Origin: a virus
Strand: one strand, 5' to 3'
IMG/VR virus record: IMGVR_UViG_3300024506_000008
Location: 1 to 52,196 of that record
Length of the DNA stretch: 52,196 bases
Shown: piece after piece, positions 27,652 through 44,900 of the stretch
Layout: each line of letters begins with the position of its first letter
Numbering within the stretch: the stretch's first letter is position 1
Notes under the pieces: model-generated
Told to the model about the DNA's origin: nothing
Databases searched by the model: none
The model's input: only the letters and a program-made list of their open reading frames with translations
Position numbers and translations under genes: made by a program

Positions 27652-28699
27652 CTAATGATATGCCAAGAATACGAGCTTTCCATTCCGACATACTCTCCAG
27701 TCTTTGCGCTTCATCCTTAACCAGAGACCTTTGCATCTCAGCGATCTTCACCATATTAGCTCGCTCTTCTTCGTCTTGAAACATTTGCACAATTGACAAA
27801 ACAGACGCATTTTCCTTTTGTTTTGCATTAATTCTGCCTGCTCTATCACCTTGCAGCTTTTTAATTAAGCTTTCAACGCGACCTTCGCATTGGTGATACT
27901 CCCCGCTTTTGGCTTTGATAATCTCGGCCAAACGAATACTCATTTCATTTTGTTCCTGCGTCTCTTCAAACATTTTATTCAGCTTGTCCAAGTGACGCGA
28001 AGTAGTTTCGAGGTTAATGATTTCTTTGCAAACATTCATATACAAATTAACCTCGTCCGCAGTGAGATCAGGCTTGTCCCAAGTCATACGTATAAACTCC
28101 TCCTCAAAAATATTCCTATCCTCTTGGGATGTATAGCAATTGATGATCTTTTGGAAGCGGGAATTGGATAAGTTTATGGCGAGTTTATCTATGCAATACT
28201 TGTGGTGACGGCTGATCTTTTCTTTATTCAGATTTTCGCCTGTTGCCGCATTGATTTTATTTATAACGCGCTCTACTGAGCGCGGAACTTGATATTTGAC
28301 GCCTAGCGCCGTTTCATTTTCTGGCATTGACCCATCCCCAATTGAGCGTAAATACTCCATCACTGTTCTGTGCTCAGTGCTCAACTGCACTACTTGCTTA
28401 TCTGGGTAAACCAACTCCGCTATCTGAAGACTCGCCACCCCCATTTTGGCCTGACCTTCTATAAAATCTTTTTGCTCATCAGTTAGCGGTAAACTTCCAA
28501 CCTTCTGGTACTTAGAAGTCTTGTAATTAATTTTGTTTGCGGCTAAGAAAGCCCTGATTGCGATGCCCTGTTTACTTCTACCATCCAACTCTTCGTCGTT
28601 AAAAAACTTTCTTGTGATTAGATTTAAATCAGGAAATTCAGCCGCAAGCTTTTTAATCTTTTCTCCATCTTCTGGGGTAAATTTAATTTCTAGATTCAT
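27638..28699 (-). CDS. DNA-binding-type helical protein, possible small terminase
   Basis: A 353-residue, mostly helical and charged protein. A possible helix-turn-helix lies near residues 75-105 (QKDFIEGQAKMGVASLQIAE, then LVYPD). Residues 220-340 are long amphipathic helices, possibly coiled coil. It precedes the nuclease and large terminase genes, the position of small terminase subunits, which bind the packaging site and assemble through helical domains. It is longer than typical small terminases (about 100-200 residues). It overlaps the sigma-like gene by 17 nt and the nuclease gene by 14 nt. Confidence 0.4.
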   Translation of the reverse strand: MNLEIKFTPEDGEKIKKLAAEFPDLNLITRKFFNDEELDGRSKQGIAIRAFLAANKINYKTSKYQKVGSLPLTDEQKDFIEGQAKMGVASLQIAELVYPDKQVVQLSTEHRTVMEYLRSIGDGSMPENETALGVKYQVPRSVERVINKINAATGENLNKEKISRHHKYCIDKLAINLSNSRFQKIINCYTSQEDRNIFEEEFIRMTWDKPDLTADEVNLYMNVCKEIINLETTSRHLDKLNKMFEETQEQNEMSIRLAEIIKAKSGEYHQCEGRVESLIKKLQGDRAGRINAKQKENASVLSIVQMFQDEEERANMVKIAEMQRSLVKDEAQRLESMSEWKARILGISLDDAV

Positions 28700-29438
28700 A
28701 ACCAGTGATGATGTCCTCGTTTTGTAGAATTTTTAAAGCGATCTGCTTAAAAAGCTTCTTTAAATTCTTGATTTGCTTGTATCCCGCCTTCTTGCCCTTT
28801 TCATTTGTCTTGTACCCCATTTCTGCGGCAACCTTTTCTTCATCTGCTCCATCGATATAGAGTCTGGCATAAACCTTGTACTGTTTCGGTGCAAGATAAA
28901 GCCTCATCTCTTCGTGTAGCTTATTTGCGCTGGACAATATGTCCAAACTGCTGTCTTTCATTGCATAGACATTGTCTATATGGCCTTCTATGGAAACAGA
29001 AAGCTTAACATCATAAGCACTCTTCTTGGTCTTTTCCCATTTACGATAAAGCGGGCATTCTGAGCATTGCAGTCCGCTTGGAGTAACAGAGCAGGCAGGC
29101 GGCTCATTCCCCTGATTGTATTTGCAACTTAAACAAGGACGAACGTAATTGGAGTAATTATTTCTTAAAAGATTCTTGATTTGATTGGATGCGATTCTAG
29201 CCAACCAAGGCTCAAGAGGCCGATCCTGTTTCCACATATGCCACTTTTTGGAGATGTGAAATCTAATTATTTGCGCCACATCTTCGAAATCCATCCACGC
29301 AACAGCCTTTAGCTGCCACATATATCTGTGCTTTTCGATTATCCGATCTACTACGTCTTGCTTTTCCTCGTACTTAATCTTGCGCCTCATTCTTTGAGCT
29401 TCCGTATTTCTGAGGAGACAAGTCTGATATGCCGTCAC
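28683..29438 (-). CDS. Phage sigma-like transcription factor (late-type), with Zn-knuckle insert
   Basis: Up to 251 residues; an ATG at 29390 (MRRKIKYEEK) is an alternative start with a shorter overlap. Residues 45-95 match sigma-70 region 2 (WMDFEDVAQIIRFHISKKW, PWLARIASNQIKNLLRN). Residues 102-128 carry five cysteines (C102, C105, C116, C125, C128) as a possible zinc knuckle. Residues 176-235 resemble region 4 (LAPKQYKVYARLYIDG, then EEKVAAEMGYK). This architecture suggests a late sigma factor like T4 gp55. It may recognise the TGTAAA(G/A/T)TA motif near structural genes. It overlaps both neighbours in the cluster. Confidence 0.65.
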   Translation of the reverse strand: MTAYQTCLLRNTEAQRMRRKIKYEEKQDVVDRIIEKHRYMWQLKAVAWMDFEDVAQIIRFHISKKWHMWKQDRPLEPWLARIASNQIKNLLRNNYSNYVRPCLSCKYNQGNEPPACSVTPSGLQCSECPLYRKWEKTKKSAYDVKLSVSIEGHIDNVYAMKDSSLDILSSANKLHEEMRLYLAPKQYKVYARLYIDGADEEKVAAEMGYKTNEKGKKAGYKQIKNLKKLFKQIALKILQNEDIITGYESRN

Positions 29439-35851: not shown

Positions 35852-36051
35852 ATTGTTTTTTATAAATACGGGTGGGGGGGGGATATATATAGGGATAAAC
35901 ATAAAGGAGAGATAAAGGGAGTTTCAAATGGTTAAAAATGGGGGAATGCGGACTAAAAACCACCCCCCGCCGTTGCCCTGGGAATCGCGGGGGCGTTTTT
36001 TTGGAAATGGGGGAGGGTGTTTCCAATCGCATTAAAAAATCAAAAAAAAGC
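35852..36051. other. Non-coding gap with G/A-rich sequence and a second terminator
   Basis: A G/A-rich stretch at 35869-35925 has several AGGGA-like blocks but no convincing gene. A strong hairpin CCCCCGC/GCGGGGG (35964-35970 with 35987-35993) with T7 at 35996-36002 is a terminator. The A-run just before 36050 leads into the first small-array promoter. Confidence 0.6.
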
Positions 36052-36080
36052 TTGCGGCACGGTGCCGCGCCCCTATTCTC
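36052..36080 (+). promoter_or_regulatory. Array promoter 1 (TTG-N19-TATTCTC), leaderless
   Basis: GCTTG after an A8 run (TTG 36052-36054), 19 nt, then TATTCTC 36074-36080. ATG at 36090 lies 9 nt after the box, so the mRNA starts at or within a few bases of the start codon. Confidence 0.65.
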
Positions 36081-36089
36081 GGGGACGTA

Positions 36090-36293
36090 ATGAATACCAA
36101 TACTGAAAACAAGCTGAATGTCCTCAAGCGCGGTCGCCTCTACTTCCACACCAAGCTTGGGCGCGTCGAGCGCGCGGTTTTGCAGGACAACGGCAACGTT
36201 GTCCACCGTCACCACGCTGAAACTAACGTCTCCGCCGTGACCTTTTTCCGTCACGCCACGCGCGAAGAAATCGCTTGCTATCTCGGCAAGTAA
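36090..36293 (+). CDS. Small hypothetical protein
   Basis: A 67-residue basic protein, MNTNTENKLNVLKRGRLYFHTKLG, with a beta-like middle (VERAVLQDNGNVVHRHH) and a helical end (REEIACYLGK). It is the first gene of the array, with promoter 1 right upstream and no ribosome binding site. Probably encoded with the next gene, 37 nt downstream. Not recognised. Confidence 0.55.
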   Translation: MNTNTENKLNVLKRGRLYFHTKLGRVERAVLQDNGNVVHRHHAETNVSAVTFFRHATREEIACYLGK

Positions 36294-36330
36294 TCCCATC
36301 CTTTCCCTCAACCTCAACCCACCCAAAAAA

Positions 36331-36579
36331 ATGGAATACCAGACCATCCACAAGACCGAAGCGCAGATCAATGCGGATCGCGCCAACTTCTACTTCGCCA
36401 CGCGCGCGCTGAACGCGAGCCCGTTCTGCCACGCGAGCGACTTCAAAAAGGCCGTTCCCGACTTGACTTGGGAGCAGAGCAACGCCCTCGCCGCTGCGAT
36501 GGTGTCCATCTTGCAAGGCTATCAGGCCGAAGCCGAGACCCGCAACAGCGGGGGCAAGGTGGGCAAGATCGTCTGGTAA
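36331..36579 (+). CDS. Small hypothetical protein
   Basis: An 82-residue protein (MEYQTIHKTEAQINADRANF...), mostly helical with many Ala; DLTWEQSNALAAAMVSILQG is an amphipathic helix. Leader A-run (CCCAAAAAAATG) but no Shine-Dalgarno is seen. No family recognised. GC-rich codon use contrasts with the AT-rich structural genes. Confidence 0.55.
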   Translation: MEYQTIHKTEAQINADRANFYFATRALNASPFCHASDFKKAVPDLTWEQSNALAAAMVSILQGYQAEAETRNSGGKVGKIVW

Positions 36580-36587
36580 GGTTTCCC

Positions 36588-36625
36588 GACACCCCCCTGT
36601 AGGAAAAGCTTACAGGGGGTGTGTC
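36588..36625 (+). terminator. Long inverted repeat after small gene
   Basis: CACCCCCCTGTA pairs with TACAGGGGGTG around a 9-nt loop. There is no T-run directly after it, so it may be an RNA stabiliser or a weak terminator. It lies 9 nt after the stop codon. Confidence 0.45.
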
Positions 36626-36652
36626 AATGGGTACTTCTACGTAGATCGTTAG

Positions 36653-36710
36653 TTTTACAAAATTTTTACAACCGGGCCTGGCCCGGCCAAAAAATACGTA
36701 GTTCTACGCA
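36653..36710 (+). repeat. Array repeat A plus TACGTAG palindrome
   Basis: Two T-run/ACAA units, then CCGGGCCTGGCCCGG at 36672-36686, and TACGTAGTTCTACGCA at 36695-36710 followed by TTGACA. Copy A of eight; this one has both palindromes. A half-palindrome TCTACGTAG also sits upstream near 36636. Confidence 0.75.
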
Positions 36711-36771
36711 TTGACAAGGTTTCTTGCACCCCTTGGCACGGAAAATGTCCCGAAAATAATCAAAAAAAAGC
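36711..36771 (+). promoter_or_regulatory. Extended leader with TTGACA and GGCACG
   Basis: TTGACA at 36711 with a TTGGCACGGAAAATGTCC block about 16 nt later. Copy F at 42066 shares TTGACA, the same spacing and a nearly identical TTGGCACGAAAAATGTCC. Probably a second regulatory or promoter element before promoter 2. Confidence 0.35.
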
Positions 36772-36800
36772 TTGTGTTCGGCTGCGCGCGGTTCATTCTC
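36772..36800 (+). promoter_or_regulatory. Array promoter 2 (TTG-N19-CATTCTC)
   Basis: GCTTG after A8, TTG 36772-36774, 19 nt, CATTCTC 36794-36800. A GTG start codon lies 6 nt after the box, predicting a leaderless message. Confidence 0.6.
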
Positions 36801-36806
36801 TCCCCT

Positions 36807-36992
36807 GTGAACATCATTAATCCCCCCGCCCTCAAGAAGGACCACTACTCCCCGATGTCGGACGTTGACCATATCGGGATGAAAAAGTTTCTGGACGATA
36901 TGGCTGCGCTGTTCGTCGCGGAAGAAGACGCTTGGGACCGCACGTTTCAATACGGCGCCGATGTGGGCCTTGACACCGGCCCGACTTCCTGA
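36807..36992 (+). CDS. Small hypothetical protein, GTG start
   Basis: About 61 residues from GTG at 36807 (MNIINPPALKKDHYSPMSDV...). The frame is open further upstream, but the promoter at 36772-36800 rules that out; GTG sits exactly where ATG sits in other units. An ATG at 36855 (MSDVDHIGM) is an alternative. The sequence is acidic and helical (KKFLDDMAALFVAEEDAWDR). A terminator follows 8 nt after the stop. Confidence 0.5.
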   Translation: MNIINPPALKKDHYSPMSDVDHIGMKKFLDDMAALFVAEEDAWDRTFQYGADVGLDTGPTS

Positions 36993-36999
36993 ATCTCTC

Positions 37000-37026
37000 G
37001 GGGGCGAGAAATCGCCCCCTTTTTTC
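37000..37026 (+). terminator. Rho-independent terminator
   Basis: Stem GGGGGCGA/TCGCCCCC with GAAA loop and T7. It ends the 36807 gene unit and has the same tetraloop style as other terminators in the array. Confidence 0.85.
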
Positions 37027-37050
37027 TACTAAAAAAACACGAAAAAAAGC

Positions 37051-37079
37051 TTGCGGTTACCCTCTCTCTCCTTACTCTC
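37051..37079 (+). promoter_or_regulatory. Array promoter 3 (TTG-N19-TACTCTC), leaderless
   Basis: GCTTG after an A7 run, TTG 37051-37053, 19 nt, TACTCTC 37073-37079. ATG at 37086 is 6 nt after the box. The sequence between is an unusual CT repeat. Confidence 0.6.
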
Positions 37080-37085
37080 TCTCTC

Positions 37086-37316
37086 ATGAACATTGAACCT
37101 GTGGAAATCACCATCAACGGCGAAGTTTACTTCTACCGCGCGGAGCTTGAGGCGACGCGCAACGGTCGCGCCGAGGTGCTCGACATCGTCGTTGAAAATC
37201 TGGACGGCGATATCATCGAGGACGACGCCATCGTCCGCGCGTGCCTGCGCGATGCGCTGGCCGATTTCAACACCGAGCCGTACTACCCCCTGCCCCGCAG
37301 GGAGTGGCAGGGTTAA
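37086..37316 (+). CDS. Small hypothetical protein
   Basis: A 76-residue acidic protein (MNIEPVEITINGEVYFYRAELEATR...). An N-terminal beta hairpin EITINGEVYFYRAEL, then a helix DAIVRACLRDALADF, look like a small alpha/beta fold. It has its own promoter and terminator (9 nt after the stop). No family recognised. Confidence 0.55.
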   Translation: MNIEPVEITINGEVYFYRAELEATRNGRAEVLDIVVENLDGDIIEDDAIVRACLRDALADFNTEPYYPLPRREWQG

Positions 37317-37325
37317 CCCTAGCGG

Positions 37326-37347
37326 GGGGCGAAAGCCCCTTTTTTTT
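37326..37347 (+). terminator. Rho-independent terminator
   Basis: GGGGC/GCCCC stem with GAAA loop and T8, right after the 37086 gene. Same tetraloop style as the other array terminators. Confidence 0.85.
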
Positions 37348-37411
37348 CGCCCTGTTGTGTCGGAAAATCTTACATAACCTTGTCAAGTAGGTAGTAATAC
37401 GTAGAGATGCA

Positions 37412-37466
37412 TTTTTACAAATTTTTTACAACCGGGCCCGGCCCGGTCAATACGTAGTTCTACTTA
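37412..37466 (+). repeat. Array repeat B plus TACGTAG palindrome
   Basis: Two T-run/ACAA units, CCGGGCCCGGCCCGG at 37432-37446 (centre base changed), TACGTAGTTCTACTTA at 37451-37466. A TACGTAG half-site is also near 37398. Confidence 0.7.
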
Positions 37467-37477
37467 CCAAATAAAAA

Positions 37478-37506
37478 TTGACCGCACGCAAAACTGAGTC
37501 ATTCTC
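37478..37506 (+). promoter_or_regulatory. Array promoter 4 (TTG-N19-CATTCTC)
   Basis: TTGACC at 37478, 19 nt after TTG, CATTCTC 37500-37506. Here ATG at 37530 is 23 nt after the box, so the predicted leader is about 17 nt; no Shine-Dalgarno is present in it. Confidence 0.55.
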
Positions 37507-37529
37507 TGTCCTGCAACCATCATCATCCT

Positions 37530-37859
37530 ATGATCAACCTGCCCCTCACCCTCACCGAAGCCTCCCTTGTTCTGTCCGCCCTGCGCGATGTCAGCGGTCG
37601 CGTCAATATGCCCCAACTGGAGACCATCATCGACAACCTCAATTCGGCCTACCTCGTTGCCGAGCAGGACAGCGACGAGCCGTTTGACGGCTTCCGCAGC
37701 GACGCCGAGGCTGACGGCGACGCCCTCGCCTCCGCTGGGCACGGCACCAACGAGGACTACCAGCCCGCGCACCCCGCCGAGGACGCCCATCTGGACTCCT
37801 ATTGGGAGGAGCGGAACGAGGGGGGCTACTACAACCCTTGGGAGGACGACGGGGTGTGA
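37530..37859 (+). CDS. Small acidic hypothetical protein
   Basis: A 109-residue protein with a helical first half (TLTEASLVLSALRDVSG...NMPQLETIIDNLNSAYL) and an acidic, disordered second half rich in D/E/A (SDEPFDGFRSDAEADGDALA). The end YWEERNEGGYYNPWEDDG is acidic-aromatic. Strongly acidic proteins of this kind sometimes mimic DNA; no homology supports that here. Own promoter and terminator. Confidence 0.5.
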   Translation: MINLPLTLTEASLVLSALRDVSGRVNMPQLETIIDNLNSAYLVAEQDSDEPFDGFRSDAEADGDALASAGHGTNEDYQPAHPAEDAHLDSYWEERNEGGYYNPWEDDGV

Positions 37860-37862
37860 GCG

Positions 37863-37889
37863 GGGGGGCGCAAGCCCCCCTTTTTTTTT
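37863..37889 (+). terminator. Rho-independent terminator
   Basis: GGGGGGC/GCCCCCC stem with GCAA loop and T9, right after the 37530 gene. Confidence 0.9.
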
Positions 37890-37892
37890 ACC

Positions 37893-37939
37893 ATTTTTTT
37901 ACAACCGGGCCTGGCCCGGCCACTACGTAGTTCTACGTA
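37893..37939 (+). repeat. Array repeat C plus perfect TACGTAG palindrome
   Basis: T-run/ACAA, CCGGGCCTGGCCCGG at 37905-37919, then perfect TACGTAGTTCTACGTA at 37924-37939 followed by TTGAC. The T-run is shared with the terminator just before. Confidence 0.8.
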
Positions 37940-38023
37940 TTGACTTCCCCCCCCTGCCCCCCCCAAACTTTTATTTGTCTATTTCGTATTTGCTGATTTG
38001 CTAATTTTTTAGCAAAAAAAAGC

Positions 38024-38052
38024 TTGCACAGCGCCCACAGTCTGTCAGTTTG
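38024..38052 (+). promoter_or_regulatory. Array promoter 5 (TTG-N19-CAGTTTG), variant
   Basis: A8-run, GCTTG, TTG 38024-38026, 19 nt, CAGTTTG 38046-38052; ATG at 38060 is 7 nt after. The spacing holds but the box is poor. TCAGTTTG also resembles the TAnnTTTG box of Bacteroidota promoters. Confidence 0.4.
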
Positions 38053-38059
38053 CCGACCT

Positions 38060-38596
38060 ATGCCAAACTGGTGCCAAAACAAATTGCTCGTCTGGGGAAA
38101 AGACTTGACCGCCTTCCGTGAGTGGCTGGGTGAAGATGTCGAGTTGACCCTTGCCAAGATTGCCCCCACGCCCAACGAATTGATCGAGCGTCAAGCTCCG
38201 TTCAAGGGAACAGAAGAGGAAAGCATCGCCTTTGTCGTGAAGTACGGTTACGACAACTGGTACGACTGGAACGTGCATAATTGGGGCACCAAATGGGACA
38301 TCGAAGCCGAGTTTGACGAGGTGTCGAGCAATGAAAATATGATGTTTTTTTCTTTTGATTCGGCTTGGAGCCCGCCCACCATTGCAATCAAAAAGCTTTC
38401 TGCGATGTTTCCCGCGAACTTCCAAATCATCTACGCCGAGGAAGGCAACGGTTTTGCGGGCTATGAAATCTTCAATGAGGGCGAAACTATCGAGACCGTG
38501 AGCTTGACCTTGGAAGAATCGAACAAAAAAGATTGGCAAGAATTTGTGCGCGAACACTTTGGGTGGGAGCCGCAAGAAGATGAGGAAAACGCTTGA
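38060..38596 (+). CDS. DUF1281/YubB-type ferredoxin-like protein
   Basis: A 178-residue protein with MPNWCQN at the start (a family hallmark), then YDWNVHNWGTKWD (about 73-85) and FDSAWSPP (about 104-111). The family has a ferredoxin-like fold and is common on plasmids and in phages; molecular function is unknown. ATG at 38060 gives exactly the family start, whereas the longer frame from 38024 does not. It has a single transcription signal and no terminator directly after. Confidence 0.75.
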   Translation: MPNWCQNKLLVWGKDLTAFREWLGEDVELTLAKIAPTPNELIERQAPFKGTEEESIAFVVKYGYDNWYDWNVHNWGTKWDIEAEFDEVSSNENMMFFSFDSAWSPPTIAIKKLSAMFPANFQIIYAEEGNGFAGYEIFNEGETIETVSLTLEESNKKDWQEFVREHFGWEPQEDEENA

Positions 38597-38621
38597 TCGG
38601 CGCTTGGCCTGTGGTATCTTG
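38593..38621 (+). promoter_or_regulatory. Array promoter 6 (TTG-N19-TATCTTG), leaderless
   Basis: The TTG at 38593-38595 overlaps the previous gene's stop; 19 nt; TATCTTG 38615-38621. ATG at 38630 is 8 nt after. Also has GCTTG like the other units. Confidence 0.5.
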
Positions 38622-38629
38622 TTTCCCGT

Positions 38630-38929
38630 ATGAATAACAACCTACGTTCCATCATCGAGAAGATCGTTGCCAACGGCGCCGCTATCGTGTCGTTTGACTA
38701 CCCTGACAAGGACGGCGCGACTAAGCGCCGCAACGGCGTGATCGGCTACAAGCCTTTCGGCCACCGCGTTTGGGGTGAGCACGAAAGCAAAGCGATTGTG
38801 GTTTCCAAGGCTGGCAACGAGTTCTTGACCGTCAAGACGAACAACGAGGACACGCCCACGGGCCACGCTTACAAGAGTTTCAACCTCGAAAAGATCAGTA
38901 ACTTCACCCATAAGGGCATCACCGTCTAA
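38630..38929 (+). CDS. Small hypothetical protein
   Basis: A 99-residue basic protein (MNNNLRSIIEKIVANGAAIVSFDYPDKDGATKRRNGVIG...). A helix is followed by beta strands with several charged residues (FGHRVWGEHESKAIVVSKAG), a layout like small SH3-type or nucleic-acid-binding proteins. It is 2 nt before a small overlapping reading frame and close to the SleB-like gene. Not recognised. Confidence 0.55.
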   Translation: MNNNLRSIIEKIVANGAAIVSFDYPDKDGATKRRNGVIGYKPFGHRVWGEHESKAIVVSKAGNEFLTVKTNNEDTPTGHAYKSFNLEKISNFTHKGITV

Positions 38930-38931
38930 GT

Positions 38932-39102
38932 ATGAATGTCTTCAAAATTGCGAAATTAATCCTTGCGTTCAATTGGAACACTGATAAAGTTCAGGAATAT
39001 GCAAAACAAAATGGTTTCCCTCCTGCTTCTGACAGCGACCTTTTCTGGGGCGGCTTCGTTGCCGCAAGTGCAGAGCGTCACGGTTACAGTCTCCCAGACT
39101 GA
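38932..39102 (+). CDS. Small reading frame overlapping the hydrolase gene
   Basis: A 56-residue frame (MNVFKIAKLILAFNWNTDKV...) begins 2 nt after the previous stop and overlaps the hydrolase start by about 100 nt in another frame. Its amino-acid content is protein-like (NGFPPASDSDLFWGGFVAAS). Either it is a real overlapping gene or chance; its place and quality leave it open. Confidence 0.35.
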   Translation: MNVFKIAKLILAFNWNTDKVQEYAKQNGFPPASDSDLFWGGFVAASAERHGYSLPD

Positions 39103-39442
39103 AGTGGTCGCCGCTACCCTCATTATGGAGGCGGGCGGCGAGGGGCGCGAAGGTATGGAGGCGGTCCGCGAAGTGATCGCCAATCGTGCCAAGGGCAAGG
39201 GCGAGATGATCGTTTGCCTCGCCCCCAAGCAATTCTCTTGTTGGAACGGTCTTGCTGTCGGCACGGGAATTGAAAAGGCAAAGCGTCACAAGAATTGGGC
39301 GCTTGCTCTGGAGATTGCGCGGGGCAAGCTCACGAACCACACGAAAGGCGCCACGCATTACCACAACGGAACGGTGTCCCCCAGTTGGGCAAGCAAGCTC
39401 AAAAAGACTGTTAAGATAAAAAATCACGTTTTTTACCGATGA
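38999..39442 (+). CDS. SleB-type cell wall hydrolase (probable endolysin)
   Basis: A 147-residue protein from ATG 38999 (MQNKMVSLLLLTATFSGAAS), which has a signal-peptide-like N-terminus to about residue 19. The domain has VVAATLIMEAGGEGREGME (37-55), VREVIANRA, CLAPKQFSCWN (73-83) and ATHYHNGTVSPSWA (about 116-129): the SleB/Hydrolase_2 family, which cleaves the peptidoglycan sugar chain; E44 is the likely catalytic residue. A signal peptide implies export to the periplasm by the host. Longer in-frame starts exist upstream but do not form a signal. Confidence 0.75.
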   Translation: MQNKMVSLLLLTATFSGAASLPQVQSVTVTVSQTEVVAATLIMEAGGEGREGMEAVREVIANRAKGKGEMIVCLAPKQFSCWNGLAVGTGIEKAKRHKNWALALEIARGKLTNHTKGATHYHNGTVSPSWASKLKKTVKIKNHVFYR

Positions 39443-39609
39443 AAAACAAAATTGCAATCTGGGTTGAGGGCGGCGCCATTCAAGGCATCCGCTCCTCTGT
39501 TGACATAGAGGTTGAGATCATTGACCTTGACCTTGAAAATACCGATAAAGACGAGGCGGAAGCTAAGTGGGAGACTTATCAAACCGAATTGCCTTTTGAA
39601 GTAAGTTAA
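39439..39609 (+). CDS. Small acidic phage protein (56 aa)
   Basis: ATG at 39439 overlaps the hydrolase stop by 4 nt. The sequence MKNKIAIWVEGGAIQGIRSS then VDIEVEIIDLDLENTD is a beta strand-loop-strand with an acidic end. Such proteins (start K-IA-W-EGG-IQ) recur among phages with unknown function. Coupled to the hydrolase by overlap. Confidence 0.6.
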   Translation: MKNKIAIWVEGGAIQGIRSSVDIEVEIIDLDLENTDKDEAEAKWETYQTELPFEVS

Positions 39610-39621
39610 GGGGCGGCAGGG

Positions 39622-39637
39622 TGGGGAAAATTCCCCA
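39622..39637. repeat. Palindrome TGGGGAAAATTCCCCA
   Basis: A 16-bp palindrome. Its reverse complement, TGGGGAATTTTCCCCA, occurs twice in the spanin-like gene at 45093-45108 and 45123-45138. Possibly a protein-binding site. Confidence 0.45.
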
Positions 39638-39643
39638 CTTTGG

Positions 39644-39678
39644 CCGGGCCTGGCCCGGTTGTAAAAATTATGTAAAAA
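39644..39678 (-). repeat. Array repeat D (reverse orientation)
   Basis: CCGGGCCTGGCCCGG at 39644-39658 followed by TTGTAAAAA and TGTAAAAA: the T-run/ACAA unit read on the minus strand. It lies between converging genes and has no TACGTAG palindrome. Confidence 0.75.
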
Positions 39679-39799
39679 TCGTCCCCACCCCTTGACAAGG
39701 GGCGGGGGCTCTCGGCGGCGCTATTTCTTCAAACTTCGCTTTGTCAGTAGAAAAGCTACTACTAGGAGAAACAGTAGAACAGAAAAGAAAAAGTTTGCG

Positions 39800-40495
39800 T
39801 CACGCACGGATGACAAAGCCGGAAACGTCTTGCTTTGCTTTGCCCTTTGCCTTTAGGGCAACCAGTTTGTTCGCGCCGTCAAGAAAGCGCAAGTCGTGCC
39901 GGTCACCGTCCACCACTTGGAAACCGTTCCAAGTTTTCGGGAAGACTGAAGAAAGGAAGACCGCCGCCACGTTACCGCCGTTGCAAAGGACATCGAGCGC
40001 CTGACTCTCGTTTTCCTCGCTGCGCGAGAAAGTCAAGTGATAATTTGAAGGCATCGCGCCCTTGGCAAATTGAAGCGCGCGGATAGGTGACTTTGTGTAA
40101 TCGTAGAATTGCACGGAAGGGAACTTGTCGAAAATGCCGAGGCGCTCCCACGAAATGTCACTCGTTCCGTTCAAACGCACGCAAGGCTTCAATCCGTTCG
40201 CGATTGCGTACTTGACGAAAGCGGCGATATCGGCAAGCAAAAGAGCCTTGAAGGTGGCGAAATCATCGAAAAACAGTTGCGTCCGGCGCACGCGCGCAGC
40301 TTGCACGGAATTCATTTGACCGCGTCCGGCGGTGTAAAGGCACGCAAGCGTGCAGTTTTTTGAGCGCCACTTGCAAACCTCGCCACGGCCCGCAAGGCGC
40401 GCGGGCGCAAGGTAAAGGATTGCCGTCAGCCACCCGAAAGCCTCGCCCTTGGAGGTTTTCGCATCGGAATTGCAGGAGAGCAAGTTAAGTTTCAT
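39800..40495 (-). CDS. GP88-family phage protein
   Basis: About 231 residues from ATG 40495 (MKLNLLSCNSDAKTSKGEAF); a longer frame from 40570 is not supported by a promoter. The part YLAPARLAGRGEVCKWRSKNC then TLACLYTAGRGQ (about 28-60) has C41, C48 and C52, characteristic of a conserved phage family called gene product 88. Later parts are VKYAIANGLKPCVRLNG and QFYDYTKS. The Cys cluster suggests metal or Fe-S binding. Function unknown. The -10 box TATTCTT lies 7 nt before ATG. Confidence 0.6.
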   Translation of the reverse strand: MKLNLLSCNSDAKTSKGEAFGWLTAILYLAPARLAGRGEVCKWRSKNCTLACLYTAGRGQMNSVQAARVRRTQLFFDDFATFKALLLADIAAFVKYAIANGLKPCVRLNGTSDISWERLGIFDKFPSVQFYDYTKSPIRALQFAKGAMPSNYHLTFSRSEENESQALDVLCNGGNVAAVFLSSVFPKTWNGFQVVDGDRHDLRFLDGANKLVALKAKGKAKQDVSGFVIRA

Positions 40496-40502
40496 ACGGG
40501 GA

Positions 40503-40509
40503 AAGAATA
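40503..40509 (-). promoter_or_regulatory. Array-type -10 box (TATTCTT)
   Basis: On the minus strand TATTCTT lies 7 nt before ATG 40495. A TTG 19 nt upstream is missing (nearest is 22 nt), so this is a partial match. Confidence 0.45.
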
Positions 40510-40562
40510 GGCGCGCGCGGAGATAAATAAACAAAAAAAATGCAATGGCCCCAATTTCTTTG

Positions 40563-40603
40563 CTTGACACGGCGGCGGCGCGGCGGGCGGCGGGGGCGTC
40601 AAG
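40563..40603. repeat. CTTGAC/GTCAAG inverted repeat around GC-rich core
   Basis: CTTGAC and GTCAAG flank a GCG/GGC-rich core of 29 nt. It lies in a GC-rich gap next to array repeat E. It might be a hairpin or paired -35 elements; no more can be said. Confidence 0.35.
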
Positions 40604-40623
40604 GCTTTTCTGAGGGAGGGGGA

Positions 40624-40659
40624 TTTTTTACAAATTTTTTACAACCGGGCCTGGCCCGG
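40624..40659 (+). repeat. Array repeat E
   Basis: Two T-run/ACAA units and CCGGGCCTGGCCCGG at 40645-40659, between two minus-strand genes. No TACGTAG palindrome follows; instead CCCCCCTAGGGG-type sequence. Confidence 0.75.
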
Positions 40660-40700
40660 CCCCCCTAGGGGTTTCCCCCTAGTGGGCGGGACTTGCTATA

Positions 40701-40994
40701 TCACCAGCCGCTATAGTATCTATAGTTGTTTACTGTAGCGAGTGAGATGTTGAGTTTCACCGCGATGTTGTAAAGGTGAACGGAACAATTCTTGCGTTCA
40801 GTAAGGCGCGGCAGCTTCTGAGCATAGAAGGCGACTTTCCACCTTTCGCTGCGCGTCAGCCAGCCGTTGATGCGCGGAGTGACAACTTGCACCTCCTGAT
40901 CAAACATAGCTTGAGCCTCCTCGGGCGTCTTGTTTACATAAAGTTCCGAACCCTTCAGGCGTTCGTTCAGAAAGTCGATAGATTGGATATTCAT
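40701..40994 (-). CDS. Small DNA-binding-type hypothetical protein
   Basis: A 97-residue basic protein (MNIQSIDFLNERLKGSELYV...). The C-terminus (CSVHLYNIAVKLNISLATVNN) resembles a helix-turn-helix. It lies between the DUF932 and GP88-family genes. No terminator directly follows; repeat E is 42 nt downstream. Not recognised. Confidence 0.5.
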   Translation of the reverse strand: MNIQSIDFLNERLKGSELYVNKTPEEAQAMFDQEVQVVTPRINGWLTRSERWKVAFYAQKLPRLTERKNCSVHLYNIAVKLNISLATVNNYRYYSGW

Positions 40995-41061
40995 CGCAAT
41001 TTTTTTCTAAGCAAAATAAACAATAGCAGAACAATAAGCAAAATTTGATATAGCAAAGGGG

Positions 41062-41089
41062 AAAAAAGGGGGCGCTGTCACCGCCCCCG
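41062..41089 (-). terminator. Rho-independent terminator
   Basis: On the minus strand CGGGGGCG...CGCCCCC with 7-nt loop followed by T6. It lies directly after the DUF932 gene. Confidence 0.85.
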
Positions 41090-41094
41090 ATAGC

Positions 41095-41868
41095 TTAGAC
41101 CGTCGCCACCTCCACCTCGGGCTTGATGTCAACCGTGAGGTTCAGACCCGCGAACGGATCGAAGATGGAGTGCAGGGCTTGGCTGCGCTTGGGGAGCGCA
41201 AGCAAGTTCCCCTTGTACACCTCGGTGAAGGCGTTGTGCAGGGACCAGAGGTTGCGCGGGGCAAACTCTTCGTGCGCGGGCTTCTCCCATTGATCGAGAA
41301 CATCCGCGATCATCGTCTTGCCGATTGCACCGGCCCGATAGCTACGCAGGATCAGATTGCCAGCCTCCTCATCGGAAAGCTCGCGCCCCTGATAGGTCGA
41401 GACGCGGGTTTCGTGCTTCGTCCACATATCGGACAAGGCACCAATCGCACGCCCGACAATCTGGGGCAAGTCGCGCAGCACGTTCGACGTATGGCGACGG
41501 GTGAACACAACCTCGTTGTGGAAAACGAGATTGCTGCAAACGAAAGGAGCGTTGCCCGCGCAGATGCCAGCGGGGAAGCTCTTGTCGTGCGAGTTACGCA
41601 AGCCGACGACGGTGCCAGCGGTGCCAGCCTTGCCGAGGTCAATCTCGAAAAGGCCGAAGTAACGCTGACCGAAGCGGGAAACCGTGTGCAGTTCCTGCTT
41701 GATGGTCAAATCCGCCGCGCGCATATTGTCGCGGAAGATCGAAACGAGATCAGAGTGCGGGATGGGCTGATAGGTCGCCGTCTTCTCGGGCGACTTGATG
41801 GCGGCGAGTTCAGCGACGCTGACCTCGGAATTGTCTGAGCCGCAGATGCGGAGGTTGATGGAGTTCAT
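41095..41868 (-). CDS. DUF932-family protein
   Basis: A 257-residue protein typical of DUF932: YQPIPHSDLVSIFRDNM (about 34-50), FEIDLGKAGTAG, GLRNSHDKSFP (about 88-98), SNLVFHNE and a long C-terminal helical region. The family is widely found on plasmids and in phages; some members are called YfjQ/YafZ. Molecular role is not established. Gene start at ATG 41868, with A-run/TTTGCAC upstream whose spacing fits the array promoter but whose -10 box does not match. A terminator follows. Confidence 0.75.
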   Translation of the reverse strand: MNSINLRICGSDNSEVSVAELAAIKSPEKTATYQPIPHSDLVSIFRDNMRAADLTIKQELHTVSRFGQRYFGLFEIDLGKAGTAGTVVGLRNSHDKSFPAGICAGNAPFVCSNLVFHNEVVFTRRHTSNVLRDLPQIVGRAIGALSDMWTKHETRVSTYQGRELSDEEAGNLILRSYRAGAIGKTMIADVLDQWEKPAHEEFAPRNLWSLHNAFTEVYKGNLLALPKRSQALHSIFDPFAGLNLTVDIKPEVEVATV

Positions 41869-42005
41869 ACGCTAGGAGGTTGGGCGCTCGGGACCGCGCG
41901 TGCAAACCTTTTTTTGCTTTTTTTTGAGGGGGGGGAGGGGGGCGAAAAAGCGCGGAAGAATGCCCGAACGGCGCGCGCTGGCGAGACTTTTCTTCTGATG
42001 GGCGA

Positions 42006-42065
42006 TTTTTTACAATTTTTTTACAGCCGGGCCTGGCCTGGGCAAAAAATACGTAGTTCTACCCA
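42006..42065 (+). repeat. Array repeat F plus TACGTAG palindrome
   Basis: T-run/ACA, degenerate CCGGGCCTGGCCTGG at 42028-42042 and TACGTAGTTCTACCCA at 42050-42065, followed by TTGACA. It shares the TTGGCACGAAAAATGTCC leader with copy A. Confidence 0.7.
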
Positions 42066-42116
42066 TTGACACGCTTTTTGGGAGGGCTTGGCACGAAAAA
42101 TGTCCGCAGAAAAGTG

Positions 42117-42145
42117 TTGCAGAGCGCAGAGCAAACTCCATTCTC
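42117..42145 (+). promoter_or_regulatory. Array promoter 7 (TTG-N19-CATTCTC)
   Basis: TTG 42117-42119, 19 nt, CATTCTC 42139-42145. Here the next ATG is 100 nt away, so the message would have a leader of about 94 nt with AGGAGG and a mini-frame. Confidence 0.5.
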
Positions 42146-42245
42146 TCCCTTGCTGACGGGGAGAAACCGAAGCCGTGAAGACTCCCTAATCACCCGCCAC
42201 ATAGGAGGCAGGCAGCGCGGCTCCAATTCTAACCCATACAAAAAG

Positions 42246-42452
42246 ATGATTGCTGACACTCCTGACAAGATCTTCGCTTACCGCCTGCTCGCCCTCAAGG
42301 GCGCGCTCAAGCTCGAAACCCTCGGGCTCCGTCACTCCTCGGGCAAGAGCGTTGCCCCGCAAATCCGCTACCTCATCGGGTCGCGCACCAAGAACAAGAA
42401 AACCCTGCTCGACCAATACGTCACCTTCCTGCAAAACCACAACATCCTGTAA
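42246..42452 (+). CDS. Small hypothetical protein
   Basis: About 68 residues from ATG 42246 (MIADTPDKIFAYRLLALKGA), a basic helical protein (RHSSGKSVAPQIRYLIGS, then KNKKTLLDQYVTFLQ). The reading frame is open upstream, but promoter 7 lies inside that extension, so ATG 42246 is preferred. It ends 1 nt before the next ATG. Not recognised. Confidence 0.5.
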   Translation: MIADTPDKIFAYRLLALKGALKLETLGLRHSSGKSVAPQIRYLIGSRTKNKKTLLDQYVTFLQNHNIL

Positions 42453-42453
42453 T

Positions 42454-42741
42454 ATGAAAGTCATCATCGACCGCGAGGACATCGTCAACCACTTCGCCGC
42501 CAAGCTGGGCGTGTGCAATAGCGAAATCGAAATCAGCTTTGACAGGGGCGCCGATCTCAACAGCGCCAAGGTGCGGATGGCGCTCACCACCCTCTGGGAT
42601 GAGGCGCAGAGGCAGGCGCGGGAGAGCCACCCCATCGCCAACAAGATCACCCTGATCAAGGCTGTGCGCGATATCTGTCCAGAGGCGACGCTCGCCCAAG
42701 GCAAGGAGTACGTGGAAAGCGTGCTTCTGGGGCAAATCTGA
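42454..42741 (+). CDS. Small helical hypothetical protein
   Basis: A 95-residue protein from ATG 42454 (MKVIIDREDIVNHFAAKLGV). Alpha/beta start, then a long helix (VRMALTTLWDEAQRQARE) and a possible helix pair with TLAQGKEYVESVLLG. It shares an mRNA with the previous gene. A terminator is 7 nt after the stop. No family recognised. Confidence 0.55.
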   Translation: MKVIIDREDIVNHFAAKLGVCNSEIEISFDRGADLNSAKVRMALTTLWDEAQRQARESHPIANKITLIKAVRDICPEATLAQGKEYVESVLLGQI

Positions 42742-42748
42742 GAGAGTC

Positions 42749-42777
42749 AAGCGCGGACTTCGGTTCGCGCTTTTTTT
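42749..42777 (+). terminator. Rho-independent terminator
   Basis: AAGCGCG/CGCGCTT stem with 10-nt loop and a T-run (42771-42777) that continues into repeat G. Confidence 0.85.
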
Positions 42778-42807
42778 ACATTTTTTTTACAACCGGGCCA
42801 GGCCGGG
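42771..42807 (+). repeat. Array repeat G
   Basis: Two T-run/ACA units and CCGGGCCAGGCCGGG at 42793-42807 (centre A, slightly degenerate). It shares its T-run with the terminator and has no TACGTAG palindrome. Confidence 0.7.
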
Positions 42808-42839
42808 CGGCTGGGGTAAACACCCCACCCACCAGTTTT

Positions 42840-43022
42840 TTAATCTAAATTATTGTCATCCGCATAGAAGGTCATTCCCTTATCGTATCCAGCCTTGTAA
42901 TCGCTTCCAGCGTTGGGGCTGGTCAACTCGCTTCGGCGCGCATCGAATTGATAGGCGCCAATGTTGTAAGCATCGAGAAACCCGCGCAAGTAAGCGTAGG
43001 TGGGTTGGGTCATCGGCTTCAT
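42840..43022 (-). CDS. Small hypothetical protein
   Basis: About 60 residues from ATG 43022 (MKPMTQPTYAYLRGFLDAYN), with the ATGA overlap to the previous gene; a longer frame from 43052 lies inside that gene and is not needed. The sequence GAYQFDARRSELTSPNAGSDYK is rich in aromatic and Gly residues. The gene ends in DADDNNLD-type acidic tail. Not recognised. Confidence 0.5.
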   Translation of the reverse strand: MKPMTQPTYAYLRGFLDAYNIGAYQFDARRSELTSPNAGSDYKAGYDKGMTFYADDNNLD

Positions 43023-43237
43023 AGGTCGTGCTGCGCGAAGATCTCTTTCCAAACGTGCGGGGGCGTTCCGGTCATAATGAACTCCCGCTCATCGGCGGTC
43101 AAGAAGGGAAACGCCTGCTGAATCAGCAGGCCACCCTTCCACTTCTCACGGGCGTCGTAATACTGCGACGCGGTCATATTGGGGAAGTCCATCTCGTAGA
43201 CCCTCCCGTTGAACTGGCAAACGCGCTTTAGTTTCAT
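43019..43237 (-). CDS. Small hypothetical protein
   Basis: About 72 residues from ATG 43237 (MKLKRVCQFNGRVYEMDFPN). Begins with a beta hairpin, then a helical part (TASQYYDAREKWKGGLLIQQ, then FLTADEREFI) and ends HVWKEIFAQHDL. It overlaps the next gene by 4 nt. It lacks a clear -35/-10 pair upstream. Not recognised. Confidence 0.5.
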   Translation of the reverse strand: MKLKRVCQFNGRVYEMDFPNMTASQYYDAREKWKGGLLIQQAFPFLTADEREFIMTGTPPHVWKEIFAQHDL

Positions 43238-43296
43238 ACGCCAGAAGTAGATCAGAAGAGGGGTGGCTGCGCGAGAACAATCTTGCACGAAAACCA

Positions 43297-43349
43297 TTTT
43301 TTACATTTTTTTTACAACCGGGCCTGGCCCGGCTACGTAGAACTACGTA
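43297..43349 (+). repeat. Array repeat H plus perfect TACGTAG palindrome
   Basis: T-run/ACA/T-run/ACAA, CCGGGCCTGGCCCGG at 43318-43332, and perfect TACGTAGAACTACGTA at 43334-43349 (centre AA instead of TT). It is not followed by TTGAC. Confidence 0.8.
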
Positions 43350-43430
43350 TCCCACTTGTGAGCTTGCTTTTATTTATTTCGCACTTATTTGTTATTATTT
43401 GCTTTCTCTTTCGTTATTATTTAAAAGGAA

Positions 43431-43547
43431 CCCAGTCAAGTTAAGGCTTTACCCGTGCCTGTGTTTTGCGTAGGGCCACCACTGTTGATTACTAACTATT
43501 TTGTTTTGTTTGTGGGCTCAGCGGAATGCTGTTCTAACTTGACTGGG
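43431..43547. repeat. 117-bp element with 13-bp terminal inverted repeats
   Basis: CCCAGTCAAGTTA at 43431-43443 and its exact reverse complement TAACTTGACTGGG at 43535-43547. GGGCCACCACT occurs inside (43473-43483) and again just outside (43557-43567). No target duplication is evident and no frame fits. It could be a structured RNA or a MITE-like element. Confidence 0.55.
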
Positions 43548-43597
43548 AAAATTGTTGGGCCACCACTCACGCACGGTTGCCCAGTCTCGGTATGAAG

Positions 43598-44527
43598 TTA
43601 AGCCTTGACTTGCTCTAACACCTTCGCGCCTGCCACCGTGAGCTTGCGCTGACCCTCGATCTTCATAAACCCCTTCTGGAGCAGGAAGACCTCGGAATCA
43701 CGCTGAAGGGACGAGCGGCTCATTCCCGTAATAGCTGACAGCATATTCAGGGAGCAGTCGCCACGATCCTTCAACGCACGGAGAATCTGAATTTCGGTGT
43801 TGTTAAGACCAGAGGGGTTGATGCCGATCTTGCTGCAAAGGTCGTCCCACTCCTTGCAACCGAAATCCTTTTTAGCCTTGGTCTCACAGTACATCTCGAT
43901 CTGCTTCGCACGCTGGACGGAGGAGCGAGCGTTGCCACGGACAGTGGTCGCGATGCGGTCCAGAGCCTCGCCCTTGAACGAAACATCAGGAAGAATCTTT
44001 TGGATAATCTTCGCGACATCCGACACGGAATAGGTCTGGAAATCGATATGAGTCAGGCGATCCTTCAAGGGGGCAAACAGGCGATCAGGCTCGGTGGTAG
44101 CGAGCATAAACGTCTGCTTCTTGAAGTTGAACTCGTACATACCCTCGCGCCAAGTAACTTGCTTGATCTCCGTCTTCTCCGTATTGAACGCAGAAAGCAG
44201 AACAGTCATCAAGTCCTTGGGGAGAGCGTGACACTCATCCAAGAGAACAGTGATCTCGTTGCCTTGGATCACTGGAGCAAACACCTGTTCAAAGAACACT
44301 TGAGCATTCTTGATCGTGCCGCAGTTGATTTCGAGGAAAGCCTTGGGCGCGCCGTCCGCAGCCTTGAGGCCACGGGCAGTCTCCTTGGCGAACTCGGTCT
44401 TGCCCATACCCTTGGCTCCGGTGAGGAGAAGGAACGGGAACTTGCGGCTCTTTTCGTGGGCGTCGAGATAGAAGTCGAGCTTCTTCTTGACATCCGCCTG
44501 ACCAACTAGTTCAGCAAAACGGGACAT
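43598..44527 (-). CDS. RuvB-like AAA+ ATPase
   Basis: About 309 residues from ATG 44527 (MSRFAELVGQADVKKKLDFY); upstream TTG 44542 is an in-frame alternative, but a GGAG ribosome site precedes the ATG. Walker A GAKGMGKT (37-44), Walker B VLLDECH (94-100), sensor 1 ATTEPDRL (143-150), arginine R157 (KDRLTH), sensor 2 GNARS (198-202) and a C-terminal winged helix (about 225-309, with EIQILRALKDRGDCSL). This matches RuvB, the branch-migration motor at Holliday junctions. No RuvA or RuvC is visible here. It may help phage recombination or replication. Confidence 0.75.
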   Translation of the reverse strand: MSRFAELVGQADVKKKLDFYLDAHEKSRKFPFLLLTGAKGMGKTEFAKETARGLKAADGAPKAFLEINCGTIKNAQVFFEQVFAPVIQGNEITVLLDECHALPKDLMTVLLSAFNTEKTEIKQVTWREGMYEFNFKKQTFMLATTEPDRLFAPLKDRLTHIDFQTYSVSDVAKIIQKILPDVSFKGEALDRIATTVRGNARSSVQRAKQIEMYCETKAKKDFGCKEWDDLCSKIGINPSGLNNTEIQILRALKDRGDCSLNMLSAITGMSRSSLQRDSEVFLLQKGFMKIEGQRKLTVAGAKVLEQVKA

Positions 44528-44542
44528 TTGATTAGTCTCCAA

Positions 44543-44782
44543 TTAGAGCTTGGTGATCTTGAACTCCACCTTGGGGGTGGTGTCGGTGGTGTCGCTGGCC
44601 TCGTTGATCGAGCGGGTGATCGGCTGGACCGTGAGGTTCATCTTCTGGAGCCAGACGCGCGAGACAGGGATCGCGCTCTTGGTGCCGATGAACTGATCGA
44701 GGTCAGCGAGGCTGACGTTGACAAAGGAGGTGGAGCCAACAGGGCGCCCACGACCGCGTTTGATTGAGGTGGTGTTATTCAT
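44543..44782 (-). CDS. Small protein with AT-hook-like motif
   Basis: A 79-residue basic protein with KRGRGRPVGST (residues 8-18), an AT-hook-like motif that would bind the DNA minor groove. The rest is a beta/helix mix (FVNVSLADLDQFIGTKSAIP, then VSRVWLQKMNLTV). It starts at a leaderless promoter (TTG-N19-TAGAGTG) and is 15 nt before the RuvB-like gene, so the two are co-expressed. A DNA-binding partner of the ATPase is possible. Confidence 0.6.
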   Translation of the reverse strand: MNNTTSIKRGRGRPVGSTSFVNVSLADLDQFIGTKSAIPVSRVWLQKMNLTVQPITRSINEASDTTDTTPKVEFKITKL

Positions 44783-44789
44783 ACGCGAT

Positions 44790-44818
44790 CACTCTACCAC
44801 AGATTCGCCCGCCGTCAA
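44790..44818 (-). promoter_or_regulatory. Array promoter 8 (TTG-N19-TAGAGTG), leaderless
   Basis: On the minus strand GCTTGACGG, 19 nt after TTG (44818-44816), TAGAGTG (44796-44790); ATG 44782 is 7 nt after the box. Same geometry as in the plus-strand units. Confidence 0.55.
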
Positions 44819-44900
44819 GCCATCTCGCGCACTTTTTTTCAAAAAAAAACGGGGGGGTGGGCGGACAATTCTTATGCCAACTCCCCATTTTTAATTAATT

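Follow-up and report, generated by a model that had tools for sequence, protein, structure and literature searches.

The small-gene array of an IMG/VR virus record of 52,196 bases (IMGVR_UViG_3300024506_000008, analysed at its full length and referred to here as the window) is very probably served by a family of sigma-70-type promoters that would place the predicted start of transcription directly on, or about 3 nucleotides (nt) from, the start codons of individual genes. The window carries tail-fibre, terminase and endolysin-type genes and also encodes an AAA/RuvB-like protein and a DUF932 protein, and its array, located at 36-45 kb, is distinguished by a G+C content of 0.49-0.56 compared to mostly 0.39-0.45 in the structural region. 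An earlier note on this DNA described eight promoters in the array with a TTG-type -35 element, exactly 19 intervening nt and a TATTCTC-like box, and the sequence at each of these eight sites, one of them on the minus strand, matches that description (Table 1).

The -35 element takes the form GCTTG at six of the eight sites, with AATTG at 37478 and TGTTG at 42117. Measured distances bear out the claim that six sites present a start codon 6-9 nt past the box, and the start codons so placed include a GTG (36807), which obeys the same rule at 6 nt; the predicted leader at six of the eight sites is 0-3 nt. The assertion that such fixed spacing is hard to explain by chance is upheld by spacing counts and by simulation. 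A search of the window for TTG-Nk-YAYTCTC returned 5 sites at k=19 and at most one at each other k from 8 to 31, and all 5 YAYTCTC boxes on either strand of 36.0-45.2 kb lie exactly 19 nt past a TTG, compared to a mean of 0.05 and a maximum of 1 in third-order Markov simulations of the same region (n=400). The three off-consensus boxes (CAGTTTG, TATCTTG and TAGAGTG) are not significant on their own, being too loose, and thus require other support; for two of them, at 44818 and 38593, this is provided by promoters found before the orthologous genes of relatives.

Close relatives were collected by two protein scans of viral contigs, using the AAA protein (70-90% identical) and the DUF932 protein (36-85% identical), and the pattern was fixed from the window before it was counted in 22 relative loci (cited below by L numbers). 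These loci hold 42 matches at k=19 compared to 0-9 at every other spacing. With an open reading frame (ORF) start required, unique sites peak at k=19 with 6 nt from box to start (28 with a strict box, 48 with a looser one), while the remaining cells of the table of spacing by offset hold 0-11. Position counts over 2,637 candidate starts show TTG at -35 in 108 cases versus a typical ~50, YATTCT at -13 in 17 versus ~1, and a peak of A6 at -47 to -44. Candidate starts comprised every in-frame ATG or GTG of the kept ORFs, and the true fraction of promoted genes therefore lies above these ratios.

Some 65 further loci, recovered by alignment of the DUF932 protein at 36-51% identity, display the same architecture in a stronger form, with TTG at -35 in 552 cases versus ~155 per position and TTGA in 379 versus ~55. 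The main joint peaks of spacing and offset are 214, for N20 and an ATG 6 nt past the hexamer, and 119, for N19 and an ATG 7 nt past it, such that the TTG remains fixed at -35 and the hexamer shifts by one base. This distant form is a plainer sigma-70 promoter, bearing TTGAC at -35, the hexamer at -13/-12, a pyrimidine at -1 and the ATG at +1, and it occurs in two sub-forms, one pairing N19 with an extended cTGt-CATACT, the other pairing N20 with TAnnnT; from their sequence, the CATTCTC promoters of the window correspond to the former. The motif search proposed in the earlier note has thus yielded a single spacing and a single start-codon offset across the window and scores of relatives. Equal motif frequency in random or coding sequence, named in the same note as the contrary outcome, was not found, as the motif is not spread through either: counts were 5 versus 0.3 expected in the array and 549 versus 50 in the distant loci, compared to 2 versus 2.1 in the structural region (window 1-35.7 kb), and the same count in three unrelated phages, one each of Microcystis, Bacillus and Salinibacter, gave 2, 3 and 0 sites, at, below or marginally above shifted-motif counts.

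Bacterial transcription usually starts with a purine at +1 preceded by a pyrimidine at -1. The base at -1 is a pyrimidine at 90% of promoter starts versus 55% of other starts, and the base at +4 is an A at 83% versus 39%. Sequence resembling a Shine-Dalgarno element is scarce, preceding 2% of promoter starts versus 11% of other starts in the distant loci and 6% versus 11% in the close relatives, and the family peak in start-codon offset, 6-7 nt past the hexamer, fits a transcription start. The -1 pyrimidine, the A at +1 and the scarcity of Shine-Dalgarno-like sequence support transcription that would begin on the start codon itself. Together with the motif peaks, these features lend support to the sigma-70 type and the leaderless transcripts that the earlier note had predicted, with the exception of 37478 and 42117, which appear to be leadered.

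The promoters of the family comprise an A/T-rich upstream tract and a TTG(A/C)C-like -35, separated by 16 nt from a -10 hexamer of the form (T/C)A(T/C)TCT. From them an RNA polymerase holoenzyme, most likely carrying the housekeeping sigma of the host and possibly one of the phage, would make a short leaderless mRNA from each such small gene. The ribosome would then begin on the 5'-terminal AUG or GUG without a Shine-Dalgarno sequence, and several genes would close with their own intrinsic terminator. Two family promoters would differ in their product, with 37478 giving a short leader and 42117 a conserved, probably structured RNA.

Individual sites show both the constancy and the latitude of this arrangement. 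The gene starting at 38630 has TATCTTG and ATG in the window and TTG-N19-CATTCTC-N6-GTG in its three closest relatives, such that the TTG at N19 is retained while box, offset and start codon (ATG or GTG) vary. The minus-strand promoter at 44818 reads TTGACG-N16-TAGAGT with a TG, and orthologues of the gene it precedes (start 44782) retain the TTG-N19-box to ~56-61% protein identity, with a varying spacer. The arrangement at 37478 is found in relatives L023 and L002-L004, including the predicted leader of ~17 nt in L023, and a promoter of L005 with an almost identical -35 and box would be leaderless. A matrix trained on relatives only gave the 38024 site the second-highest score in the window. 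A possible ninth member, before a GP88-family gene at 40495, has no TTG at N19 in the window, and its orthologues in L007, L021 and L023 carry the TTG-N19-box. A further matrix match, at 38963 ahead of the lysis gene, was left out of the family because it overlaps conserved coding sequence and copies from relatives were in the training set.

Table 1. Positions of promoters, terminators, leader RNA and structural-gene motifs in the window, and of leader RNA homologues in relative loci.
Feature	Position	Strand	Elements	Box to start (nt)	Start codon and ORF	Predicted leader
Promoter 1	36042..36092	+	A-run, TTG 36052-36054, box TATTCTC 36074-36080	9	ATG 36090; 67 aa, to 36293	0-3 nt
Promoter 2	36762..36809	+	A-run, TTG 36772-36774, box CATTCTC 36794-36800	6	GTG 36807; 61 aa, to 36992	leaderless
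Promoter 3	37043..37088	+	A-run, TTG 37051-37053, box TACTCTC 37073-37079	6	ATG 37086; 76 aa, to 37316	leaderless
Promoter 4	37466..37532	+	TTG 37478-37480, box CATTCTC 37500-37506	23	ATG 37530; 109 aa, to 37859	~17 nt
Promoter 5 (weakest of the eight)	38014..38062	+	A-run, TTG 38024-38026, box CAGTTTG 38046-38052	7	ATG 38060; to 38596	
Promoter 6	38581..38632	+	TTG 38593-38595, TGG-TATCTTG (extended -10) 38612-38621	8	ATG 38630; 99 aa, to 38929	
Promoter 7	42107..42152	+	TTG 42117-42119, box CATTCTC 42139-42145	none	leads into conserved RNA, not a leaderless ORF	
Promoter 8	44780..44825	-	TTGACG from 44818, TGG-TAGAGTG box 44796-44790	7	ATG 44782; 79 aa, to 44543	
Possible ninth member	40495..40509	-	TATTCT box	8	ATG 40495; GP88-family gene	
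Intrinsic terminator	37000..37025	+	directly 3' of promoter 2 ORF			
Intrinsic terminator	37324..37347	+	directly 3' of promoter 3 ORF			
Intrinsic terminator	37862..37889	+	directly 3' of promoter 4 ORF			
Intrinsic terminator	42749..42777	+	3' of ORFs downstream of promoter 7 (last ORF end 42741)			
Conserved leader RNA	42152..42224	+	GCTGACGGGGAG...GGCTCC, covarying arms		ahead of 68-aa ORF 42246-42452	
Leader RNA homologue, L005	14129	-				
Leader RNA homologue, L021	8915	+				
Leader RNA homologue, L007	8347	-				
Leader RNA homologue, L013	13646	-				
Leader RNA homologue, L014	14442	-				
TGTAAAGTA motif examples	320, 2232	+				
TGTAAAGTA motif examples	31662, 22897, 19362, 10005	-				

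Several observations weigh against an array of leaderless genes read by a sigma-70-type polymerase. The evidence is drawn from sequence throughout and the start codons are predictions; the relatives share descent, so that their counts are not independent events, exact duplicates having been removed and orthologues kept. Sites 37478 and 42117 belong to the same promoter type and are not leaderless, and a comparable promoter is absent before the orthologues of the 38024 gene in relatives. The close-group box CATTCTC departs from TATAAT, and a search for the full promoter pattern in 84,980 bacterial species returned just 54 scattered, chance-like matches, many of them within coding sequence.

The bases on which the promoters might be doubted altogether are the least credible. 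Chance, or CT-rich sequence of low complexity taken for a pattern, could draw on the position of site 37051 within a CT-repeat and on the three boxes that depart from consensus, but it is already contradicted by the simulations, the spacing controls, the independent distant loci and the unrelated phages, and its probability is negligible. It is scarcely more plausible that the TTG-N19-box pairs, instead of being promoters, are bound by a regulator or act as a signal in translation: the same intergenic regions are indeed crowded with further palindromic and direct repeats, yet the elements sit at -35 and -10, beneath an A/T tract and in many members with an extended -10 (TG), and relatives vary toward TTGACA/TATAAT-like sequences. 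Were the promoters real and transcription to start elsewhere, with the adjacent start codon unused, the mRNAs would bear ordinary leaders, for which 37478 and 42117 set a precedent within the family and which the predicted status of the start codons would allow. This is improbable, however, given that the start-codon offset is the sharpest feature of the family (peaks at d=6 for both k=19 and k=20), that the bases at -1 and +1 fit a transcription start, that few of these starts are preceded by Shine-Dalgarno-like sequence, and that the proteins of the 38630 and 44782 genes align with their orthologues from these very start codons onward.

The identity of the sigma factor is the more serious matter. 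The TTG-N19-YAnnnT arrangement places 16 bp between hexamers and peaks occur at N19 and N20 only, in keeping with the elements and spacing (16-18 bp) of sigma-70 promoters; a scan with the Escherichia coli consensus recovers only 44818 among the eight sites. The exact CATTCTC pattern is uncommon in the 84,980 bacterial species, which leaves room for a host with another promoter preference or for a phage factor. Promoters that are real and leaderless might thus be read by a phage sigma or a phage-modified polymerase, with CATTCTC as its own -10, and this is a minority possibility, at a fraction of the weight given to the sigma-70-type reading but well above the other alternatives. A sigma-like protein matching Sigma70 region 2 is encoded within the structural gene cluster of the window (28683-29438, minus strand) and in 12 of 17 related records, the window counted, and a second sigma of 200 amino acids (aa) with regions 2 and 4 occurs in the three closest relatives. 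The window itself yielded no such second sigma, however, and the same architecture in distant relatives approaches the TTGACA/TATAAT consensus with near-consensus promoters of the TTGACA/TATATT type, some of these loci sitting in records where no sigma match was recognised. If a phage sigma is at work, the motif TGTAAAGTA suits it better, which, in this form or in close variants, lies 4-26 nt before several structural-gene starts; it is a candidate late promoter from its sequence and position, possibly giving very short leaders too, and plausibly the target of the phage sigma. Since the array and the structural genes carry separate promoter types, the sigma-70-type array would be expressed early, or perhaps in the middle of infection.

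Intrinsic terminators directly follow three array ORFs (at 37000, 37324 and 37862), and those genes consequently look like self-contained units in which a leaderless ORF is flanked by its own promoter and its own terminator. The spaces between genes also hold eight copies of an element of 40-98 nt (window 36653, 37411, 37885, 39642 on the minus strand, 40625, 42008, 42773 and 43298), composed of tandem TTTTTTACAA and the palindrome CCGGGCCTGGCCCGG, often with the palindrome TACGTAGTTCTACGTA and then TTGAC. Its G+C palindrome is also present in close relatives, next to other palindromes (e.g. TATATAGCGCTATATA), and the element is possibly an operator, an origin or a recombination element. Promoters 36772 and 42117 are both preceded by the sequence TTGGCACG(G/A)AAAATGTCC, at 36733 and 42088, also found upstream in L023, which resembles the -24 element of sigma-54 without the -12 GC.

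The RNA made from the promoter at 42117 would begin at its predicted transcription start, and it is probably structured, judging from a hairpin with the loop RYAUAGGA and covarying arms (CUCAUC/GAUGAG, CUUGUC/GACAAG) seen across L005, L021, L007, L013 and L014; a pseudoknot would result from two more helices. This leader RNA matched no Rfam family and its minimum-free-energy folding was not significant. A wider pattern search added two contigs, one of which looked like a chance match upon inspection. Further non-coding sequence lies 3' of the RNA in L005 and L007, and the RNA may therefore also exist as a small RNA. A separate stretch of ~350 nt without an annotated family follows a promoter of the same family (TTG-N19-TATTCTC) in L009 (~10073-9710, minus strand) and also in L010, and ends in a G+C-rich hairpin and a T-run; by its sequence it looks like a non-coding RNA, and it has no Rfam match.

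Searches for the host, and for similar proteins in a phage collection, returned little. A verrucomicrobial or similar host is conceivable. Scanning for the AAA protein across bacterial genomes gave zero matches, and the promoter pattern was next to absent from 22 assorted genomes and from 299 and 198 genomes of two phyla. Within the phage collection, matches were weak for the terminase (22-26%, mainly Firmicutes phages), the AAA protein (21-27%) and the DUF932 protein (28%, Salinibacter phages), and two other structural proteins found no match.

Leaderless genes with a -10 element beside the ORF have been described in a bacterial survey (PMC3160421) and for the Deinococcus-Thermus group, where TACACT is the commonest motif at ~6-7 bp from the ORF (PMC12340547). 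Those genes and the predicted leaderless genes here share a -10-type hexamer ~6-7 bp before the start, the lack of a Shine-Dalgarno sequence and transcription that begins on the start codon or beside it (PMC12340547; PMC3160421). In Deinococcus-Thermus, however, the motif is a -10 (TANNNT, e.g. TACACT) of cellular genes, whereas the phage small-gene arrays here have a full -35/-10 pair whose distance to the start codon is fixed, a CATTCTC variant of the box and, upstream, an A/T tract. Leaderless mycobacterial mRNAs likewise begin at AUG or GUG, commonly for small proteins, but these belong to cellular genes with experimentally mapped starts, compared to phage starts predicted from sequence here (PMC3898074, PMC4633059). 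Among phages, a leaderless lambda transcript has been noted (PMC3160421) and the transcript of gene 90 of mycobacteriophage Adephagia is predicted to be leaderless (PMC11373665); these too have transcription starting at the start codon, but they are isolated cases, whereas here the design recurs at numerous genes of each genome throughout a clade of phages. Compared to ordinary sigma-70 promoters, the family shares a TTG-type -35, 16-17 bp spacing, a YAnnnT -10, in part with TG, and A/T-rich sequence above the -35, and differs in a first -10 base that is often C, a close-group box of TATTCT or CATTCT, and a constant position relative to the start codon. The literature searched, which lay chiefly outside subscription papers and preprints, contained no account of leaderless genes throughout a phage clade, such that absence is not proven. 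Leaderless genes have precedents in bacteria and, one at a time, in phages; a clade-wide phage array would be a variation on these.

The chances are about even that a widespread, uncultured clade of aquatic phages expresses its small genes, probably early in infection, mostly as leaderless mRNAs, each gene forming a cassette with its own terminator and its own promoter, the whole of which keeps a fixed distance to the start codon. If so, gene units could be exchanged as complete modules, and many phage genes could be translated in this manner by hosts in which leaderless expression is not known; it would then be of interest whether such translation is favoured during infection by the host or by the phage. 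The promoters provide precise predicted start sites for many genes of phages without cultured relatives, and the fixed rule relating -35, -10 and start codon offers a means of finding small genes that gene finders reliant on Shine-Dalgarno sequences may miss or misplace. Leaderless expression, so far seen in phages one gene at a time, would, if the reading holds, become a strategy shared by a whole phage clade.

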